Below, piece by piece: positions 7,140 through 17,778 of a DNA stretch of 56,542 nucleotides (the first letter of the stretch is position 1; the number at the start of each line of letters is the position of its first letter). Made by a program: the position numbers and the translations under genes. Under the pieces are notes generated by a model. That model was given only the letters and a program-made list of their open reading frames with translations, did not search any database and had not been told where the DNA came from. This DNA comes from Thermoplasmatota archaeon. GTDB lineage: Archaea > Thermoplasmatota > Thermoplasmata > Thermoplasmatales > Thermoplasmataceae. The stretch spans positions 19,263 through 75,804 of the forward strand of contig JAMDBT010000007.1 of NCBI GenBank assembly GCA_023487205.1, written 5' to 3'.

Positions 7140-7160
7140 ATAGCTATATACCACATAGCC

Positions 7161-7171
7161 GCATATATATT
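7161..7171 (-). promoter_or_regulatory. TATA box of the phoU-like gene
   Basis: The AT run GCATATATATT is centred about 27 bases before the ATG at 7139 on the minus strand, the spacing expected for a leaderless archaeal transcript. It directly abuts the broken end of the IS1634-like transposase, so the promoter was preserved when the IS fragment arrived or was trimmed. Confidence 0.7.
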
Positions 7172-7172
7172 C

Positions 7173-8396
7173 CGCACCACGCAGGAACTCAAGGATCTCA
7201 GCAGGGATATAGATAGGGAGATATTCCTCAGATGGAGGGAGAAGCATCCCCTCAACCGAACGGACCATGTTGCCTATGACCTCACCATCGTACTCTTCTT
7301 CGGAACCTCATGTCCCCTGGCAGAATTCGGCTATAATCCCGGCCATCTCAATAGACGGCAGGTGAACATAGCACTCATGGTATCAAAGGAGGACTACCAG
7401 CCTGAATACCATGTAGTGTTTGAGGGATTGCGATCCGGTGTGACAACGGTGAGGAATCTCCTGGCTGCGCTTCCCGCCCGGGACGGTACTCCGGGAACCA
7501 TCATATGGGATCGCTACAACATGTCTGCAGGGAACGTGACCGCCGTTGATCTGGCGGGATGGTTCCTGATATCAGGCATTCCGAAGAGCGTGAAGCAGGT
7601 CCGCACCATCCTGTCCAAGACGGAGATCAGCGAGGTTCCGCAGAACCTGGCCAGGAGGACAAGGATAGCCAACGTCTACGCCGATCTTGTCCATGGGAAC
7701 GCATACGGAAAGACCAGGAACATGACGGTGTACCTCAGCCCCCTCAAGGCGCTGAACGAGAGGGAGGATCGCAACTCGGAACTTGCAAGGATCGGCAAAG
7801 AACTCGATGACCTGTCGGGGAGATGCACGGACTGGGACGAGCCCAGGATACGTGCCGAGATCTCGAAGATAGAAGGGGAATGGAAACCGTACATGGAGAT
7901 CAGGATAAGCAGGAATGGCGGCAGGAGGATTCAGTGGCGATACCACTCACACGCAATCCTGGCATCTGCGAGGCTGGACGGGAAGTCTGCCATACTGTGC
8001 ACCGATCCGTCCATGAGCGCCAGGGAGATAGTCAACCAGTATCTTGAGAAGGATTTCGCGGAGAAGGTCTTCCGCACCATGAAGACGCAGGAGGAGATCG
8101 TTCCTGTAAGGCACAGGCTGGAGAGACGCGTGAGGGCATACGTATTCGTCATGGTGACAGCATACAGGCTGATTGCAGCCCTTGTGTTCATGCTGAGGGA
8201 ATCCGGCGATAGGGAATCATGGGAGGAGATGGAGAAGCTCCTCGACTCACTGTCGAGGGTGGAGAGGTTGGAGATCACACTGCGGAAAGAGCACAGGACA
8301 TGGTATCTCAACGTGAGAAGGGAGACGGGAGAAACGTTGAAGAAAATAGGCTATGAATGGCTGTTTGACGAGAAAAAACAGGGATCACAGGTGTAA
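7173..8396 (+). pseudogene. 5'-truncated IS1634/IS4-like DDE transposase
   Basis: The frame is open from 7092 to the stop at 8394-8396. Transposase-like sequence starts near 7173, with YDLTIVLFFGTS (probable first catalytic Asp), FGYNPGHLNRRQVNIAL, IIWDRYNMSAGN (second Asp) and EKVFRTMKTQ (Glu region). This is the order seen in IS1634-type transposases. About 405 residues remain against roughly 550 in the family, so the N-terminal domain is missing. No good start codon precedes the transposase homology: the first GTG at 7362 lies after the first catalytic Asp. The 5' end abuts the phoU promoter and the 3' end overlaps the truncated istA by 12 bases. It is probably inactive. Confidence 0.75.
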
Positions 8397-9248
8397 TAGG
8401 TAATTCCCGTCGCTGTTCAGGCCATGAGTGGTTCCATGCACCTGGGAGTTGACCTTCTGCAGCCATTCATGGCACTGGGCATTCATATCCTGGAGGGATT
8501 CAAACGTCCTGCCTGCCCAGAAATTGTATCTGAGGTATTTGATCGTGTTTTCGATCTTTCCCTTTGTCTGGGCGCGATAGGGATGGCACAACCTCACAAC
8601 GATGCCATAGTACTCGGCGAAACTCATGAACTCGCCGTTGAACCTTGATTCGGAGGCCTTGATCTTGCGCTCGAGAACGACCTGCTTCATGTTGTCGTAG
8701 AGGATCGTATCTGTGTATCCCCGGAAGAAACGGAACGCGTTCAGGTGCAGGCGGATCACGTTGCGAGTGCTGACGTCTGTAGTAAACTCGGCATACCTCA
8801 TCCTTGAATATCCCAGGATCATGGAGAACGTATACAGCCTCCTGCGTTTTCCATCCTCTGCGATATAGCCAAATTCACCGAAATCCACCTCCGACTGTTT
8901 TCCCGGGTCTGTCTCGTATCTGTCGACTGCAATGATCTTCCTGTCATTTCTCATGGGCCTGCTGTGCATCTTCACAAGGGAATATGATCCCCGGAAGCCT
9001 TTCTTCCTCAATTCCTCGTGGATCCTCACAGCGGAAAGATTGTGCTGATCTATCATTTCCCTCATCAGGGGGAGAAATGGCTCAATGCTTGATCCTGCAG
9101 GACCCCTGTGATACTGTGGCACCATACCGGACTTGAGATATCTTCTCACCGTGGTCCTGCTTATCCCCAGTCTTCTCGAGATCTCGCTGATCGACAATCC
9201 CCGATCCTTCATCTCCCTGATCACGTACCATCCCTCCTGTTCAAGCAA
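8385..9248 (-). pseudogene. istA: IS21-family transposase IstA, truncated at the C-terminus
   Basis: 287 residues. The N-terminal helix-turn-helix (SISEISRRLGISRTTVRRYL) is followed by the rve integrase core, with DDE residues visible in QSEVDFGEFG, LYDNMKQVV and KGKIENTIKYLR. Full IstA is about 400-500 residues. Here homology stops at the conserved HGTT, and the last dozen residues are junction sequence before a stop at 8385. The partner ATPase IstB is absent. The upstream end of the element is preserved as three 24-bp repeats (9276-9346). Loss of the C-terminus and of istB makes autonomous transposition unlikely. Confidence 0.87.
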
Positions 9249-9275
9249 TCCGCTGCACCCTTGCTCCGCAAGCTA

Positions 9276-9346
9276 GACTGGCTATTTTTCGATTGCCGAA
9301 ACTGGATACTTTTCGTTTGCCATAATTGGACAGAATTCACTTGCCA
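9276..9346. repeat. Three tandem 24-bp-spaced repeats at the IS21 end
   Basis: Three related units begin at 9277, 9301 and 9325 (ACTGGCTATTTTTCG, ACTGGATACTTTTCG and ATTGGACAGAATTCA, each ending near TTGCC). The period is exactly 24 bases. Multiple repeats inside the terminal inverted repeat are typical of IS21-family ends, where they bind IstA. The element boundary is probably the CA near 9346-9352. Confidence 0.75.
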
Positions 9347-9467
9347 TTTACAGTCCAAACATGCCTCGAAATTTAAGAGCACGGGAAAGATATGGAAGCG
9401 GACAGACAGACCAATTAGAACCAGATAATGTTATTTATGCCTTCAATTCCGTAATGGTTGTAGCATA

Positions 9468-11012
9468 ATGGATCAGAATCCAATTCAGTTCGCCCTTAAC
9501 AAAGCGAAACAATATTCGTTCGAAGATCTAAGTTTGATGATTGGATGCATATACCATTGGAACGGCTATGGTGCACAGAGACCCCTTTATCATTTGCTTC
9601 TTTCCGAACTTGCAGATTTGTGCCCACTGAGTGGGGAGATGACCCCTACGTTAGAGGATGCTCTGAATTTAATTAACACTTTTAGTGATGAATACAACAA
9701 ATATAGATCTGAGAAACTTTCCTCGCACATATTTTCCGATCAAGAAGGGGACGATGTGGAAGAACTCACTATTAGCAGGATTGCGAGTGAAAGCATTATC
9801 AATCCTGATTCTGAAGCAAGATTAATGGAATATATTTTGGATAAATTTCAGCCAATTGATCAGTTACTTTTCGAAAAACTTGGTTTTCGAACCAGAGACT
9901 TGTTGAGAACTATCAGATATATTGAAATTCTAATGCAAGCTGATTTCTTAGATTATAACGAGATTGAGTTGCCTATATTCAAAATGAGGCGAGGATCTCC
10001 AGATCACTATAAACAAGAGTGGGAGATACCTCCATATGACTTTTATATTCAATGGAAAAGATCAAACTCGTTTGATTTAGAGAATGAATATTCGTTTCTA
10101 AGGCCAGAAACTAAAAGCGTATTCAGATTTCTCAGCAGTAGTCAGGCGGCGTTCTCAACTAAAGAATACGCTTTTAGAAGATGGGCATTCTTGAAAAAGG
10201 AAATTGATACAGCAGTTTTGCTTGACCCGACGCACTTGGCTAACACTCTGCTTACTGCAGTACATATCGGTTTGTTGAATAGTGTTACACAAATAGAAAA
10301 AGGTCGCTATCTTGAGAGTATAGGAAAGCAATTTGAAGAAATGATAGCAAATTCATTTAGACAAGCTTACCCATTCGCAACTATCAACCCAAATAAAAAG
10401 TATCCTGGTCAAGTAGGAGATACTGATATCGAAGTGACTTTGGAGGAAGATTTTTGCATATTAGCCCAGTGCAAAAGCAATCAACTGATTCAAAAAAATG
10501 CAAAGAAAGACGATCGAACTTTCGCAGAGTTTTACAACAAGAGTGTTCTAAGAGCGGCCCAGCAAGCAAAGGAATCATTGGAGTTCCATCCTAATGCGAA
10601 ATCTGTAAAGTCCGTGTTTATAATAATAGATTCTTATCTGCCGGGTATATTTGTTTTACAAGGACGGAGTGGCGATACTTATAGAGCACTAAAAGAGCTC
10701 CCATCCCCAATTGTAATGAATTATTTTGACTTCAAATATCTACTCTATCGTATTCCATTCCGGAATTTGGCTAGGTACTTAGAATGGCGTGACAAAGTGA
10801 TATCGTTGGGAATACTCATCCTCTATGATGAGTACGATTTAATAAGATTCTACTTGAAGACAGTAGAGGAGGGATTAGAAGAACAAATGTTGGATCTTTT
10901 TAAATTTGGCGCCGAAAAGGGGCTACCGCCTAAGATTATTTTTATAGGGTATGATGAAGAATGGGAAACGGAAGGATTTGCTTCATTGGATTTGAAACTT
11001 GGGTTATTCTAG
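9468..11012 (+). CDS. Uncharacterised protein with a PD-(D/E)xK nuclease-like domain (QxK variant)
   Basis: 514-residue protein that I do not recognise as a named family. Residues 1-280 look mainly helical. From about 279 the sequence GRYLESIGKQFEEMI leads into a restriction-endonuclease-like core: E290 (or E291), then GDTDIEV (D320), a strand, and ILAQCKS (Q334-x-K336). The QxK form of the motif is known from Mrr-type nucleases. Residues 380-420 give further beta strands, and 440-514 is a separate tail with YDEYD and GYDEEWE. No membrane segment or signal is seen. The gene is AT-rich compared with the core, lies next to an IS21 end and converges on a second PD-(D/E)xK gene. A DNA-cleaving defence or mobile-element role is an inference. 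Confidence 0.75.
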   Translation: MDQNPIQFALNKAKQYSFEDLSLMIGCIYHWNGYGAQRPLYHLLLSELADLCPLSGEMTPTLEDALNLINTFSDEYNKYRSEKLSSHIFSDQEGDDVEELTISRIASESIINPDSEARLMEYILDKFQPIDQLLFEKLGFRTRDLLRTIRYIEILMQADFLDYNEIELPIFKMRRGSPDHYKQEWEIPPYDFYIQWKRSNSFDLENEYSFLRPETKSVFRFLSSSQAAFSTKEYAFRRWAFLKKEIDTAVLLDPTHLANTLLTAVHIGLLNSVTQIEKGRYLESIGKQFEEMIANSFRQAYPFATINPNKKYPGQVGDTDIEVTLEEDFCILAQCKSNQLIQKNAKKDDRTFAEFYNKSVLRAAQQAKESLEFHPNAKSVKSVFIIIDSYLPGIFVLQGRSGDTYRALKELPSPIVMNYFDFKYLLYRIPFRNLARYLEWRDKVISLGILILYDEYDLIRFYLKTVEEGLEEQMLDLFKFGAEKGLPPKIIFIGYDEEWETEGFASLDLKLGLF

Positions 11013-11363
11013 GAGAGGAAGATCTAAGGTTTTCTTGCTCCGCTTTTTGAGTAGAACTCATTTTCTAATAGGAACCATGCCATTAAGAGCATATTCTCAT
11101 CAAATCTATTTCCGATTTTGTTAGAAAATAGAGAATTCCGAAAAACCTGACCCGATTTGAAAGGGTTCCCGGGGAGAGCGAGATTATGGTGCGATCTCTG
11201 CGAGTCCGAAGAATGTGTGCATCTGAACTTCGTACGGTCAGTGCCTGAAGTGAGAGTTCTCCTATAAGTCAACAATTACGTGTGACTAACGTTTCGGTTT
11301 GAAATCGCGTTCAACCAGACTTTAGAGTTAAGTCTTGGACTCTTGCGTTATAGAGATATAGCG
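11013..11363. other. Convergent intergenic region between the two nuclease-like genes
   Basis: A 351-base stretch between two converging stops. A minus-strand open frame at 11024-11275 (83 codons) ends in RFDENMLLMAWFLLENE. It has no convincing promoter or ribosome site and no family I can name. It could be a small gene or a decayed fragment; I see no repeat, RNA gene or clear terminator. Confidence 0.35.
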
Positions 11364-13100
11364 TTACAAAACTTCTTCTGTGGATGAACCGAATCTTGCC
11401 TCTTGGATTTCTATGCAATCTTCGCAAACTTGAATTGGGTACCCATTCATTAGTAGCTGTCTGGTAGGCTCGTCACCGCAAATCATACAAGCATTCTCAT
11501 TTGTTTCAAGGATTGCTTTGCTCATTGCATACTGATGGAAAGGAAGATTAGCCAGAAGTTCCGAAATCGTGAAGAATCTAACCATAGGCTTTTTCTGTGA
11601 GGCATCTAATTCTCTTAGGTCTCGAAGTGGGATTATTCGTATCCCTTGAAACTCCTTTATTGGTTCAACGTTAAATGTCACATAAACTAGCTTTAGGTCG
11701 TATGCCTTATTTCGATTAAAACCAAATCTTTCAAGGTTTTCAGAAAGAAAAGATGCACGTCTCTTCATTTTTTCCGGTTCCTGCGACAAGATGCTCCCTA
11801 AATGTTTATTTCTGTTGCGCACAATGAACTCTGTGGTAAATACCAAATGTTTGCATTCTATAAGGTATATCTCATCATTCTTGTATGCTATTATGTCTAT
11901 CTCCAAAGTTGGTTTTTGTGTGTCATCAAGTACATTAACCATTTTCTTGTTCTTGTCGTTTGGTTGATAGACTAGAAATTGATATTTCTCGAGCTCTTTG
12001 ACAACTTGATCCTCAAATTCCCTTCCCACATCGCGAACCCTGTCCAGGTATTCCCTAAAATACTTCGCCTTGAGAAGTCTTGAAACCAGAACTAAGGTCT
12101 GTGGTCCAATAAATAACCCTTTAGATGTCGACAGGAGAAGTGGGAAGCCCTTCTTTCTGTTTGATGCTAGGTAACTCAGGATGTGATCAATCGCGTTTAA
12201 ATCGAACCCTTCTTTTAGGAAGAAGTTATAGAATTGTATCAAAAGGATCGGTTTGAGTTCAAAGGAAGTAACTCTGCCCATCACGTTCTTTTCTGCGGAA
12301 TAATAGAATGGAAATTCTATTGTCATTCTTTCGAAGGCTCGCAGAGTGTCCACTGAGTCCTTCAGGTCTGGAAACTCCAACAGTTCTCTATTGCCCGTAC
12401 TCTGTTCCAGCGATATCTTTGTCCTAATTGAATCCCAGAACTCGTCAAGCAAGGGCACCTTGGCAGAACTGAAAACACCAAAATGTGCTTCATTCTTAGC
12501 TATGATACCGTTAGCGCTAAGGTTCTCAAGGACTTCTTTCCACTGATAAGTAAACTTCAATTCCGTTACCCAGTCATCCCCGTCTAGCTCTTCGAAATTC
12601 TTTTCATCAGCCTTCAATGAGTTTTCCAAGTCATAGCAGTAAGTTCTCAATTCGCTCTTTCTTATCCTAATAAACCGAATCCAGTCATTTTGCAGAAGTG
12701 AGATGATTTTCTTGTCCATATTCGCCCTTTCTGCTAAGTGATAGAGTTCTTGAACTCCGTCTTCATTCCAAACAGCTTGTTTATTTCCCAATTGGTCAAA
12801 GGACATTACTAGGTTTATCAGTTCAGAAATCCCTATGAAATAAGGGAGGTCGGGAACTTCTGAATGAAGCTCGCTCTCTCGCGTTATGTACGCAGATATC
12901 AAAAGACTTTCCTTCTCGTATTGTTTCATAACGTGCAATATTCTAGATGAAATGTCCTTGAATTCGGATACGAGATGGTTTTTGGAGACGACCACATTTT
13001 CAACCTCAACTCCCTCGCAACTAGGGCACCAGCCAACGTTTAACTTCCCTTTACCAAGCAAGAGCGTAGTGCCACATTTTTCGCATTTGTATTTGGTCAT
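11364..13100 (-). CDS. Uncharacterised protein with N- and C-terminal zinc ribbons and a PD-(D/E)xK nuclease-like domain
   Basis: 578-residue protein, family not recognised. Residues 6-28 hold a CxxC...CxxC zinc ribbon (C6, C9, C25, C28). A long, mostly helical region (30-340) follows. The nuclease-like core starts with VRDVGREFEDQVVKEL (E361/E363), then PTLEIDIIAY (D402) and YLIECKH (E415-x-K417), a complete PD-(D/E)xK signature close to NERD/Mrr-type nucleases. A second zinc knuckle (C538, C541, C559, C562) closes the protein. The order 'hydrophobic helices, a basic linker, G-x-x-FE, D, (E/Q)xK' also occurs in the convergent gene at 9468, so the two may be distant homologues. Function is unknown; nucleic-acid binding and cleavage is inferred. 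Confidence 0.77.
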   Translation of the reverse strand: MTKYKCEKCGTTLLLGKGKLNVGWCPSCEGVEVENVVVSKNHLVSEFKDISSRILHVMKQYEKESLLISAYITRESELHSEVPDLPYFIGISELINLVMSFDQLGNKQAVWNEDGVQELYHLAERANMDKKIISLLQNDWIRFIRIRKSELRTYCYDLENSLKADEKNFEELDGDDWVTELKFTYQWKEVLENLSANGIIAKNEAHFGVFSSAKVPLLDEFWDSIRTKISLEQSTGNRELLEFPDLKDSVDTLRAFERMTIEFPFYYSAEKNVMGRVTSFELKPILLIQFYNFFLKEGFDLNAIDHILSYLASNRKKGFPLLLSTSKGLFIGPQTLVLVSRLLKAKYFREYLDRVRDVGREFEDQVVKELEKYQFLVYQPNDKNKKMVNVLDDTQKPTLEIDIIAYKNDEIYLIECKHLVFTTEFIVRNRNKHLGSILSQEPEKMKRRASFLSENLERFGFNRNKAYDLKLVYVTFNVEPIKEFQGIRIIPLRDLRELDASQKKPMVRFFTISELLANLPFHQYAMSKAILETNENACMICGDEPTRQLLMNGYPIQVCEDCIEIQEARFGSSTEEVL

Positions 13101-13370
13101 TAACTGTTCCCTATTCGAGGACTTACGGCTTACTTGTGCATTAAACTTCTTCCAGACGCTTCTTACGACCTTGGCATATAATATTGAGAAGTGAAAGAGG
13201 TCATACTTCTAAAGACGGGTTTCATGCCTTAAAAGAGTTTGTTATAAAACATAGAGTGGGCGCTTGAATCGCAGTACTCAAGATATATTATACGCGCACG
13301 GATAGTACGTAGAAACCGCGTGCTGGATTCTTGGTTTTTTGTTCTGGGGTATTGGGTATCTCACTGATTC
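13101..13370. promoter_or_regulatory. Divergent promoter region of the zinc-ribbon nuclease-like gene
   Basis: Upstream of the minus-strand ATG at 13100, AGGG (about 10 bases before the start) is a weak ribosome site and GTTTAATGC near 13140-13148 a weak TATA box. A stronger AT box, GATATATTATA near 13279-13289, would serve plus-strand transcription towards the hypothetical frame at 13371. Confidence 0.35.
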
Positions 13371-13799
13371 TTGATATGGGGGGCTGCAACAAGCGGAAGA
13401 AGTACGGTTTGGTTAAGTACCCCAGAAGGGTTCAGGTTTATAGTTATCACGTATGGTTCTGGATCAAGTTCCCTTGGCTGGACTGCTTCACTAGGGGAGA
13501 TCGGTGAGGCTCTGAATAGTCTGCCTCAGCAAACAATATCTGACGCAATTAGAGAATTATCGAAATTGGAAAACTTTCTAAAGTCGGTAAAACTCTCCGC
13601 AGACTTCAATGATGAGTTTCAAGTTCCGATATACAACTTCCCGAACTCCATCAGGGTACTGTTGCAGAGATTTCATCGAAAAGAAAACACCGGGAAAAGA
13701 TTATGTCCCCAATCCAGGAGGGAGAAAGGGGAATTGGAAAGACAAGAAACCCAAAGAAACAAGGGATGGGGACGAAAAAGAATTGGGCTATCAAAATGA
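13371..13799 (+). CDS. Possible hypothetical protein, perhaps frameshifted
   Basis: TTG-started frame of 142 codons. The first 105 residues look protein-like (GEIGEALNSLPQQTISDAIRELS, probably helical). After about base 13680 this frame becomes rich in Arg, Gln and Trp and looks like noise. The +1 frame (to 13863) then gives a lysine/glutamate-rich sequence with PGKDYVPNPGGRKG. A single frameshift near 13680 would join the two into about 165 residues. I recognise no family. It lies in the AT-rich cargo between the zinc-ribbon nuclease-like gene and the IS110 element. Confidence 0.35.
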   Translation: MIWGAATSGRSTVWLSTPEGFRFIVITYGSGSSSLGWTASLGEIGEALNSLPQQTISDAIRELSKLENFLKSVKLSADFNDEFQVPIYNFPNSIRVLLQRFHRKENTGKRLCPQSRREKGELERQETQRNKGWGRKRIGLSK

Positions 13800-14099
13800 T
13801 AACCTAATTTCTCATGCAGATCAAAAGACATCTGAAAAAATTGCCACTGAAACACGCACGTAAAATCTCAGATCAGCCTTTCCGTTTTCACATATCCAAT
13901 TCAACCTCTCTTATGAACGTTCTCCTTTGGACCGGGATGGAATCTGCCTTCCCTGCCTTTCCGCAAACACGCATAAACACTCGAAGGTGTAAACTGACAA
14001 TACAGCGGAGACAGGTAATGGCACTCAAATTGTAGAGTTCATGACTCATGTCCACAGAAGCCATGCAGCAGACCCCAGTGACCCGTATGTCCGGAGTGT
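13800..14099. other. Non-coding flank 3' of the IS110 transposase
   Basis: About 300 bases without a supported gene. If the element belongs to the IS1111 subgroup, its structured non-coding RNA would lie on this side (the right end). The boundary of the element was not found, and no striking inverted repeat was seen here, unlike on the other side at 15204-15238. Confidence 0.35.
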
Positions 14100-15194
14100 T
14101 CATTCCTCATCCAGTCTTGATAGCTTGTTCTCCGTCACTGCGGGATTGGCATATTTCCACTCCTTTCTTTCGGAGAGCATTGTGTAGATCATCCTGACCA
14201 GCTTTCTCATGGTGGAAACATGGGCAAACTTACCGGATCCCTTGCGGTTCTTCACGGACTGATAGTATTCCTTTATGGGTTTGTTCCTCAGCGATACTGT
14301 ATCCACCGCCACGGAGAGAGCCCATCTCGCTGTCGACGGGCTCTCCTTTGACATGTGGCCTCGCCTCTTGATGGATGATGAATCCCGTGTGGCAGGTATA
14401 ACGCCGAAGTATGCTGCAAGCTTGTCAGGATTATCGAATCTCCTTATGTCGCCGATGTACGATGACAGCAGGGAGGCGAGATAATAGTCGATCCCGGGAA
14501 TACTCATTAACAGGCGAACATCCCCGCTCTCCCTTGCCATCCTCTTTATCTCAGTCTCAAGGGGAATGATCTGTCTCTCCTGGAAGTCAAGGCGATCCAT
14601 CAGTGTCTTGAGGACCAGATCCTTCTGGTTCCCGAACCTTATCTTCTTCATGGCCCCCCTCCTCTTTTCCGAGAAACTCTCGGATGACTCGGGTAGACCG
14701 CCGTAAAGACCTTCGCGCTTCAGGTAGCCGATGATGCCGTTCTTCGTGGATGCGACGGACTGTGACAGCTCCACCCTCTGTATCAGGAGATCCCGAAAGA
14801 TCCTGTCGTCCTCATCGAGAAGGTGTGATTCAGGGATCATGTTTACGAGATGGAGCCTCGCAAGTTTAAGGCTGTCTACCTCGTCATTCTTCCTCTTCGA
14901 TTTGGTGATCCAGGCGATCTCTTTCGGGTGTGCCACGGTGAGGTCACAGTAACCGAGATCCTTCATTGTCCTGCTGAAAGAATATGCCGATCCCGATGCC
15001 TCAAACACTATCCTCGTGTCCGGGGGTATCCTGAATGCAAAGTCAGCATACCCCTTCATGTCCATGGGAAAATCAAAGCTGTCTCTGACATCTCCGTCAG
15101 GCGCAAGATACGTGGCAAAGCTCTTCTCCTCTCCAATATCTATTCCAACAACAGGACTGTTCATTCTTTTGTTACGCTTCTTTTCCTTATCCAT
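14100..15194 (-). CDS. IS110-family transposase (DEDD recombinase)
   Basis: 364 residues. The N-terminal DEDD RuvC-like domain is visible: GIDIGEEKSFATYL (first Asp), IVFEASGSAY (Glu) and KNDEVDSLKLARL (Asp pair). The C-terminal Transposase_20 domain has LLMSIPGIDYYLASLLSSYIGDIRRF, KLAAYFGV and the serine-containing segment of IS110 enzymes. These enzymes move circular or double-stranded intermediates guided by a bridge RNA coded in the element ends. The gene appears intact and preceded by a strong SD (GGAGGG) 5 bases before ATG 15194. The neighbouring region 15195-15321 contains a 12-bp stem-loop that may be part of such an RNA. Confidence 0.92.
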   Translation of the reverse strand: MDKEKKRNKRMNSPVVGIDIGEEKSFATYLAPDGDVRDSFDFPMDMKGYADFAFRIPPDTRIVFEASGSAYSFSRTMKDLGYCDLTVAHPKEIAWITKSKRKNDEVDSLKLARLHLVNMIPESHLLDEDDRIFRDLLIQRVELSQSVASTKNGIIGYLKREGLYGGLPESSESFSEKRRGAMKKIRFGNQKDLVLKTLMDRLDFQERQIIPLETEIKRMARESGDVRLLMSIPGIDYYLASLLSSYIGDIRRFDNPDKLAAYFGVIPATRDSSSIKRRGHMSKESPSTARWALSVAVDTVSLRNKPIKEYYQSVKNRKGSGKFAHVSTMRKLVRMIYTMLSERKEWKYANPAVTENKLSRLDEE

Positions 15195-15260
15195 ATTTCC
15201 CTCCCGGCTGCTTCCATGACTGACAGGAAGCAGCTCGGAAAGGCTGACCGGCTGGGGGAG
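15195..15260 (-). ncRNA. Candidate IS110 bridge-RNA region with a strong stem-loop
   Basis: Just before the transposase start, GCTGCTTCC (15207-15215) pairs perfectly with GGAAGCAGC (15226-15234). Adding CCG (15204-15206) against CGG (15236-15238) with one bulged base gives 12 bp around a 10-base loop. IS110-subgroup elements code their bridge RNA between the left end and the transposase gene, so position and structure agree. The donor- and target-binding loops were not identified, and the full RNA length is unknown. An alternative is an attenuator or transposon-end hairpin. Confidence 0.4.
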
Positions 15261-15321
15261 ATCTTACTATTCAGTCAAGTCGCAAGATTAAAAGTGAGAA
15301 TTTATGTTCCTGACCGTATAA

Positions 15322-15642
15322 ATGTCCGAGAAAACGGTATATAAAGCTGAAGAAAAGCTGAAGATCGTCCTGGAAGGCATGATCGGAACCATATCGGTGG
15401 CTGATCTGTGCAGGAAATACAACATCGGCACTGCGAGATTCTACTACTGGAAGGATCAGTTCATGAAGAGTGCCCCTGGCATATTCGAGAGCAGGGACAG
15501 GAAGGCCGACGAGGATCGCATCAGGGCGGAGAAGGACGGCGAGATCTCAAGGCTCAAGGACGTGATCGCGGAGATCACGCAGGAGAACCTGAAGATCAAA
15601 AAAAAAATCGGAGAACGCTTGCAGAGGAGGGGACGGACATGA
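15322..15642 (+). CDS. IS3-family transposase OrfA (helix-turn-helix)
   Basis: 106 residues with the HTH_Tnp_1 pattern: YKAEEKLKIVLEGM, then VADLCRKYNIGTARFYYWKDQF, then a coiled-coil tail from about 60 to 100 (a leucine-zipper-like segment with ITQENLKIKKKI). OrfA binds element ends and is joined to OrfB by ribosomal frameshift in this family. A run of ten A lies at 15598-15607 near the 3' end. The stop overlaps the orfB ATG (ATGA at 15639-15642). Confidence 0.88.
   Translation: MSEKTVYKAEEKLKIVLEGMIGTISVADLCRKYNIGTARFYYWKDQFMKSAPGIFESRDRKADEDRIRAEKDGEISRLKDVIAEITQENLKIKKKIGERLQRRGRT
15598..15607 (+). promoter_or_regulatory. A10 slippery run, candidate -1 programmed frameshift site
   Basis: Ten consecutive A lie in the overlap of orfA (frame of 15322) and the orfB frame, which is open from 15408 and lies one base back. 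Slippage here would give an OrfAB fusion, as in other IS3-family elements. Because orfB is otherwise broken, the signal may now be a relic. Confidence 0.55.
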
Positions 15643-16597
15643 GATCCCTGTTCTTCGATATCCACAGAACGGCCATGAATGCCGTGGAGAGGGCAGGATA
15701 TTCCCTGTCGAAGGCGCTCTCCACCCTCGGAATATCGAGGTCCTGGTACTATGCGCAGCTGGATTTCTCTCCCCTGCTGGACGGAAGGTTCAACGCATTC
15801 GCCGCCATGGACGATGAGTGGATCGTGATAGGATTCAAGCACCGGTATCCGAGGATGTCGTTCAGGGAGATTGCCTATGCCCTCACCGACGGGGATCTTG
15901 CATATCTCACCCCGTCCACGGTGTACAAGATCCTGAAGAAACATGATCTCATAACGCCATGGAACCGCATCGCATGGGCATCTACCCGTCCCGAACGTAC
16001 AAAGAGGCCCGACGAAAGGTGGCAGACGGGCATCATGTACGTCAAGATAACGGGCAGGTTCTTCTACCTCATAATCTTCATCGACGAATACTCCAGGTAC
16101 ATCGTGCATCATGCCCTCCTCACCTCCTGGATGCGGATTCCGTGTCGCTTGAAGCGCAGTCCGCAATTGATAAGCTCAGGAGGGATTCCATCGCGGAACC
16201 CGTGATACAGAGCGATAACGGATCGTCGTTCATGGCAATGGAGTTCAAGCAGGTGCTGAAGGAGAATCACCTGGCGCAGAAGCTCATAAGGCCGCACACG
16301 CCGGAGCAGAACGGCATCGTCGAGAGGGCCAGCAAGACCATGCGCGAATCCATGGTGCCCGTGATACTCGCGGATTACGAGCATGCGAAATCGGAGATTT
16401 CAGGGATAATCGGCTGCTATAACGATGAGAGGAGACACTCATCGTTAAACTATTTAACGCCGAAGCAGTACTACAGGGGAGAACCGGAGATCCTGATTGC
16501 AGTCAGGGAGGCAAAGATCGAGAAGGCAAGAGCATTAAGGAAGGAGAGGAACATGAAAGAGAGAAAAGGAGGTGAAATGGCAGGGACCTTCTCATAA
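15639..16597 (+). pseudogene. IS3-family transposase OrfB, frameshifted and lacking the first catalytic Asp
   Basis: The rve-type integrase starts at ATG 15639. Homology runs in one frame to about 16125 (FIDEYSRYIVHHALL), then continues in the frame one base back from SVSLEAQSAIDKL through QSDNGSSF (second Asp) and NGIVERASKT (Glu) to a stop at 16597. The sequence near the break is not a homopolymer, so a point indel is more likely than programmed shifting. The usual W-x-x-D is WQTGIMYVKI, so the first DDE aspartate is replaced by glycine. Two separate lesions show that this copy is dead. Confidence 0.85.
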
Positions 16598-17422
16598 TTG
16601 ATTTTGGGTTTTGTCCAGAAGTGAGATAAACAGTACACATTCCTCTCTGTGGAAATAGACGAACACGTCACCCCATATCCGGTGGCTCTGGAGGATTATT
16701 ATTGCATTGTCCTTCCACTTGTCGAGGATCTTTCTTGCGACGGTCATCTTCATGTCCATCAGGAAGATGATCTTCTCCTCGTGTAACTGCGCCCTCAGGG
16801 AGGAGAAGAATTCATCAAGTCCTTCACCGGAATCCTCGTTTCCTATGTTCCCGAATTTCAGTCCGCCTGACACTCCAAGCATAAGCCCCCTGTGGCCCTT
16901 GTACATCATGTCTATGGTGACTATTGCGTACCTGGTGCCTTCGTATTCAACGGTATCCGGATCTCCTCTCCTGCTGTAACCGATGTTCGGCAGAGACATC
17001 CTCATCTCGTTGAACATGTCCTTTCCTAAGCCGAACATCTCAGCCGATCCTTCAGATGAGGCGCAATGCACATACGCCAGGAATGCGGTCATCTGTTTCC
17101 TGTACCTGAATGTGGTCAGCTCGAAGGTATTGTACAGGGACATCTTAGCCCCGCATTTCCTGCAGAGGAACTCCCTCGTACCGGATCCATTGCTTCCGTC
17201 GGATGTCAGGGGAGAGAAGCAGAATCTGCAGCAGAAACCCCCGTATCTACCCACTACCATTGAAGCAACCGTGTCATAATCCAGCATGGAGTCGAGGCGC
17301 ATCAGAAACTCCGATCTGTCCCTCATCGCCGGGTCTGGAATGTTCACGCCCCAGTGGAACGATCTTGATCTGCTGAGGCTCAGATTACGCTCCGATGGAC
17401 TATAATCAACGAGGAAGGGCAT
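16592..17422 (-). CDS. Transposase-like protein with N-terminal zinc ribbon (DUF2080-associated element)
   Basis: 276 residues. A zinc ribbon (CCRFC about 64-68, then CRKCG about 88-92) precedes a central region with AIVTIDMMYKGHRG, then IIFLMDMKMTVARKIL and ILQSHRIWGDVFVYFHREE, spacing that fits a DDE/DDD transposase. Its ATG overlaps the stop of the DUF2080 gene (TGATG), the layout of a two-gene archaeal insertion sequence. I could not assign the IS family. The C-terminal dozen residues run into the end of the neighbouring IS3-like element, so the 3' end may be truncated. Confidence 0.65.
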   Translation of the reverse strand: MPFLVDYSPSERNLSLSRSRSFHWGVNIPDPAMRDRSEFLMRLDSMLDYDTVASMVVGRYGGFCCRFCFSPLTSDGSNGSGTREFLCRKCGAKMSLYNTFELTTFRYRKQMTAFLAYVHCASSEGSAEMFGLGKDMFNEMRMSLPNIGYSRRGDPDTVEYEGTRYAIVTIDMMYKGHRGLMLGVSGGLKFGNIGNEDSGEGLDEFFSSLRAQLHEEKIIFLMDMKMTVARKILDKWKDNAIIILQSHRIWGDVFVYFHREECVLFISLLDKTQNQL

Positions 17423-17622
17423 CAGCCTTCTTTCTCTTCCTCTTTGTCCATCGGTTCAAGGCGCACAACTCTTACTTTCTTCCCTATCCAGTGTCTTGGA
17501 ACCAGAACCTTGGCTGATGTTGCGTGCTGTGTGACGACCTTCTCAATCACCTCGTATCCCTGCATCTGGATGTCCATTGGCTTTTCGGATACCTTCCGTT
17601 TCATATTGCAATAATATTGCAT
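17422..17622 (-). CDS. DUF2080 family transposon-encoded protein
   Basis: Up to 66 residues (starts at 17622, 17604 or 17574 are possible). The core GYEVIEKVVTQHATSAKVLVPRHWIG with KKVRVVRLEP is the DUF2080 pattern, an AbrB-like small protein found beside archaeal transposases. It presumably binds DNA and helps or regulates the downstream transposase, which starts on the same A as its stop codon. The acidic KEEEKEG tail closes the protein. Confidence 0.8.
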   Translation of the reverse strand: MQYYCNMKRKVSEKPMDIQMQGYEVIEKVVTQHATSAKVLVPRHWIGKKVRVVRLEPMDKEEEKEG

Positions 17623-17778
17623 GCTTGTATTTCATGTTTTCTGTTGCTAGGGTGGTACCGTACGAAGATATGGATAACGACCAGAGGCCGAACAATTCCT
17701 ACAGTAACACTACGCCAACAGTATATAAGCAATCACTCGGTATCCAACAATCTCTCCCAAAGCGGCTACCTGACAAGA

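Follow-up and report, generated by a model that had tools for sequence, protein, structure and literature searches.

One of two large genes on an insertion sequence (IS)-bordered island encodes a protein, P0001, which sequence profiles assign, as a new branch from archaea, to a nuclease family that is widespread and for the most part uncharacterised; its neighbour, P0002, is a predicted NERD-like nuclease. By colinear profile matches, a large set of proteins from plasmids and phages, most of them without a name of their own (and often annotated as SecA, SEC-C or hypothetical), is tied to GapS1, an anti-phage protein, and the GapS1-linked family now reaches this archaeal group. Archaeal immunity that depends on a single gene has been little sampled and, should the defence role discussed below be true, the whole family becomes testable via knock-in tests.

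The locus and its mobile setting

The window, by which we mean the whole stretch of 56,542 nucleotides that was analysed, contains the following features, with coordinates counted from its first letter.

7152 to 17774, no strand: block of ~10.6 kb with both genes and several IS remnants, without a DNA match at the syntenic flanks in two same-genus genomes
8385 to 9248, minus strand: ORF of an IS21-type IstA transposase with rve (9.4e-15) and HTH domains, bounding the AT-rich block on the left
9468 to 11012, plus strand: P0001, 514 aa; predicted PD-(D/E)xK-type nuclease (E290, D320, Q334-x-K336) at the C terminus, behind an N-terminal part predicted to be helical
11364 to 13100, minus strand: P0002, 578 aa; putative NERD-like nuclease core (D402, E415-x-K417), with CxxC pairs at either end of the protein
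14100 to 15194, minus strand: IS110-family transposase, right border (Transposase_20, 1.1e-17; DEDD_Tnp_IS110, 1.6e-10)

An earlier note, made from the sequence alone, had described two large open reading frames in an AT-rich block between an IS21 end and an IS110 element. The frames lie where it placed them, Pfam domains identify both transposases, and the GC content of the block is 38-43% against ~50% around it. Chance does not account for the open frames (527 and 614 codons), since the 3.6 kb block, shuffled 300 times, never exceeded 192 stop-free codons. GC3 is 0.36 for P0001 and 0.44 for P0002, compared with 0.47-0.64 in twelve other sampled non-IS genes, and this, together with the base composition, suggests a foreign origin. 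In DNA comparisons with same-genus genomes the matches of the left flank end at window position 7151 in one record and 7139 in another, the match of the right flank starts at 17775, and nothing matches between 7151 and 17775 (these neighbours are draft contigs, in which the empty site was not seen joined). Because the conserved flanks stop at the edges of the ~10.6 kb block, P0001 and P0002 are foreign cargo in a mobile setting, and their own locus is species-specific, AT-rich and IS-bordered.

The IstA-like ORF, at 287 aa, is probably truncated. Its end is overlapped by a 344-aa ORF (7362-8396) that is without a significant Pfam match and resembles an IS4/IS1634-type transposase over the latter's C-terminal part; given this resemblance, another IS may have interrupted the IS21-type gene. 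Elsewhere in the island, 15322-16597 was judged by eye to be a broken IS: its IS3-like orfA (106 aa) precedes an orfB-like stretch that is divided between frames (15408-16205 and 15959-16597). The same AT-rich block holds, at 13371-13863, a 142-aa ORF with a TTG start and, overlapping it in a different frame, one of 84 aa; the arrangement looks like a frameshifted small gene and has no Pfam match.

Two PD-(D/E)xK-type proteins and their relatives

Single-sequence searches returned no relatives of P0001 or P0002 in the nearest 150 genomes or in 341 genomes of the phylum, nor in phages, viral contigs or plasmids at E<=0.01. P0001 had no match in Pfam, NCBIfam, PADLOC or PHROGs, neither protein matched a restriction family, and a PDB sequence search with the single proteins gave nothing meaningful. 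Degenerate probes, artificial variants of both proteins run against viral and GTDB contigs, also found no match, which is weak evidence of absence because in one run one of the two probes had been built from non-motif columns. Several candidates were set aside: the weak P0001 matches in the single-sequence search are due to chance and, where inspected, lie inside an MCM helicase; NERD matches in related genomes belong to SLFN-type helicases and to a DUF234 ATPase rather than to relatives; Rhizobium matches in the plasmid search overlap a response regulator gene; and most phylum matches of profile A9, as well as the G188 ORF, have only the nuclease core in common. At E<=10 the plasmid search provided a lead for each protein, from Halomontanus rarus for P0001 (E=2e-6 as a single comparison) and from Alteromonas for P0002 (E=7e-7).

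The Halomontanus lead opened onto 44 places in 43 plasmid records and the Alteromonas lead onto five plasmid records; members were also found on 11 viral contigs, and the annotations of the family run from hypothetical and nuclease-related to NERD, SEC-C and SecA. A family profile was made from 16 members collected with their neighbourhoods, the window proteins being left out. It detects P0001 with E=3.6e-10 (hmmsearch, run on the ORFs of the window and of the collected loci), and hhalign aligns the two at 97% over 327 columns (residues 113-465), compared with at most 1.3% for shuffled P0001; the N-terminal half alone gives P=0.001 against the family. A common order of motifs runs through P0001 and the family: a helical Y-x-P...GF, P..Y..P, GxxxE, the catalytic-type D, (E/Q)-x-K, then a Q and finally DE..L. 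As judged from these profile matches, P0001 is a very divergent archaeal member of a widespread plasmid/prophage nuclease family. The earlier note had recognised no family for either protein, which no longer stands; neither turned out to belong to a housekeeping family.

NERD (PF08378) is matched by 11 of the 18 aligned proteins. The PADLOC matches to PDC-S12 and E2 involve only the C-terminal SEC-C motif and were rejected. The SecA annotation is, in our reading, wrong; some public records (L039 and Agrobacterium records) label members 'preprotein translocase subunit SecA' or 'prepilin peptidase', probably because of the SEC-C motif. In the 16 loci the neighbours include transposases, integrases, toxin-antitoxin, restriction and DUF4209 genes, the defence genes among them being judged by eye and without a background rate. 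On two haloarchaeal plasmids (L028, 6505-11212, and L029, 6277-10984) the same set of four genes comes after the family gene (one coding for a DEAD/DEAH helicase-family protein, the others hypothetical), and a linked multi-gene locus is possible there.

P0002 is more distant. Residues 359-456 score 20.3 and 23.9 bits (two runs) against Pfam NERD (cut-off 22.1), and its CxxC pairs form zinc-ribbon-like ends. Its alignment with the plasmid family is confined to the nuclease half, appearing with the C-terminal half of the family when that half is used alone, and its nearest neighbour is the Alteromonas/Klebsiella branch (P=2.3e-4). Against the whole family profile it gives P=0.012, and unrelated NERD controls give 0.012-0.016; since this is no better than other NERD proteins, P0002 is described here as NERD-like, with family membership unproven, and as possibly a distant member.

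The motif residues that had been proposed from the sequence fall, at the positions named, in columns conserved in very distant homologues. In P0001 these are D320, K336 and Q334, the last being E or Q across the family; in P0002 they are D402, K417 and E415, a column which likewise holds E or Q. The Q-x-K of P0001 might suggest a dead enzyme; one bacterial branch also has it as a rule (QAKSK). AlphaFold models from nine-row alignments are of low confidence (mean pLDDT 41.7 for P0001 and 42.9 for P0002, the N-terminal ribbon of P0002 being the best-modelled part) and place strands and helices around the motifs in the order that was expected. In both proteins the D...(E/Q)xK residues are predicted to lie in consecutive strands of the common core, and the earlier note was right to call both PD-(D/E)xK-type. 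In the Foldseek check that it had suggested, PD-(D/E)xK enzymes predominate among the best matches of each model, and none falls below E=0.001. The models support the PD-(D/E)xK fold without deciding it.

The connection to GapS1 comes through other members of the family. Two haloarchaeal members are matched colinearly by the NCBI GapS1 model (NF047931; curated cut-off 320 bits), and in the Halalkaliarchaeum member, scanned alone, residues 214-363 align to model positions 215-361 (E=2.2e-7). A Klebsiella phage protein of the GapS1 family, which scores 393 bits against this model, has the same motif order as the plasmid/prophage family and matches its profile with P=5.5e-5. These comparisons indicate that the family, and P0001 with it, is distantly related to GapS1. 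The same Klebsiella phage is said to carry a GAPS1-like protein in a report whose wording has GAPS1 as protective against phages (PMC12774648). The name of the NCBI family likewise presents GAPS1 as anti-phage.

Possible roles of the two genes

Both genes are plausible virus-defence genes because the family of P0001 appears to be distantly related to a named anti-phage protein, and we put defence, at roughly even odds, as their likeliest single role. The nuclease activity of the proteins, its substrate and trigger, and the defence role itself are what we infer from sequence. Our preferred explanation, which falls a little short of an even chance, is that P0001 and P0002 came in on a mobile island and each work alone, as nuclease effectors independent of one another and probably directed against viruses or plasmids. 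Acquisition of the island would bring in both nucleases; the large, fast-evolving and mainly helical N-terminal part would probably sense an infection product or hold the enzyme off, and the C-terminal PD-(D/E)xK-type nuclease, once released, would cut invader or host nucleic acid, most likely DNA, and so end the infection. The zinc-ribbon-like ends of P0002 may bind nucleic acid or protein.

The most serious alternative, though an unlikely one, is that the nucleases serve the mobile element itself, in plasmid or provirus recombination, replication or the exclusion of rivals, and were left as the element decayed. The presence of family members on plasmids and viral contigs, the wealth of IS remnants in the island and the Hjc resolvases among the fold matches of the P0002 model (with a weak Pfam Hjc match, 0.12) would all fit; however, genes for replication, structural proteins or an integrase are lacking beside the pair, Hjc does not resemble proteins of this size (514-789 aa) and with such large extra domains, and the relatives lie on unrelated replicons with differing neighbours.

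It is improbable that the proteins act as Type IV-like restriction enzymes, cutting incoming DNA that bears foreign modifications without killing the host. The best fold matches of the P0001 model are to the BspD6I nicking endonuclease, with FokI further down, and one relative, in Klebsiella, adjoins a phosphorothioate-DNA restriction gene, but no modification-reader domain, helicase or methylase is found in or beside the genes, and the want of a restriction-family match also counts against this role.

That P0001 and P0002 form one obligate two-component system has, in our estimate, a rather slim chance. They are adjacent and both of PD-(D/E)xK type, and show a weak mutual similarity (E=0.001 when compared as a single pair); yet the genes are convergent, tail to tail, and hence not an operon. 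A survey of co-occurrence, the check put forward by the earlier note, found no other genome with both genes; the relatives, in their 44 places, are solitary, and beside none of the 16 fetched members is a further full-length gene of the family annotated. Of the 'convergent pair' the tail-to-tail arrangement stands, but the two-gene system that the phrase suggests is improbable, the relatives being nearly always single; it is this gene order, the solitary relatives and the lack of a second genome with both genes that lead us to regard P0001 and P0002 as independent cargo. We think it very improbable that they are passengers which no longer have a function, drifting among the partly broken genes of an IS graveyard, as both frames, unlike their neighbours, are fully open and retain all motif residues. 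Least probable is a new archaeal two-nuclease immune unit, without known counterpart, in which P0002, with zinc ribbons at its two ends, would recognise invader nucleic acid and P0001 would be the partner effector.

Comparison with known systems

As candidate stand-alone nucleases, P0001 and P0002 can be set against four known groups. The first is the plasmid family itself, of which WP_317176134 (Halomontanus), WP_222609053 (Halobaculum), WP_068840302 (Pontibacter) and WP_071819105 (Rippkaea) have the same motif order as P0001, although they are only 13-18% identical to it. The SEC-C motif (PF02810), found in four relatives, is absent from P0001 and P0002 in the Pfam search, and P0001 is without any zinc finger. 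The second is Pfam NERD, a domain listed among those of phage-defence systems (PMC10952713): P0002 matches it approximately at the gathering cut-off, whereas P0001 does not match, and the known NERD proteins of related genomes are helicases or ATPases of a different build. The third comprises the CARF-PD-(D/E)xK enzymes Can2 and Card1. The family profile matches Can2 (7bdv, E=1e-4) and DUF1887 (8bao, 0.016), and CARF_PDDEXK models match P0002 at 361-422, but these matches are confined to the nuclease part and no CARF domain was found with Pfam.

The fourth is GapS1. Its model has no match in the archaeon's own genome at E<=1 and does not reach P0001 or P0002, for which direct comparison also gives nothing; the family, by contrast, shares with GapS1 the solitary gene, an N-terminal region of ~220 aa, the P..Y segment, GxxxE and a D...AKG-type core.
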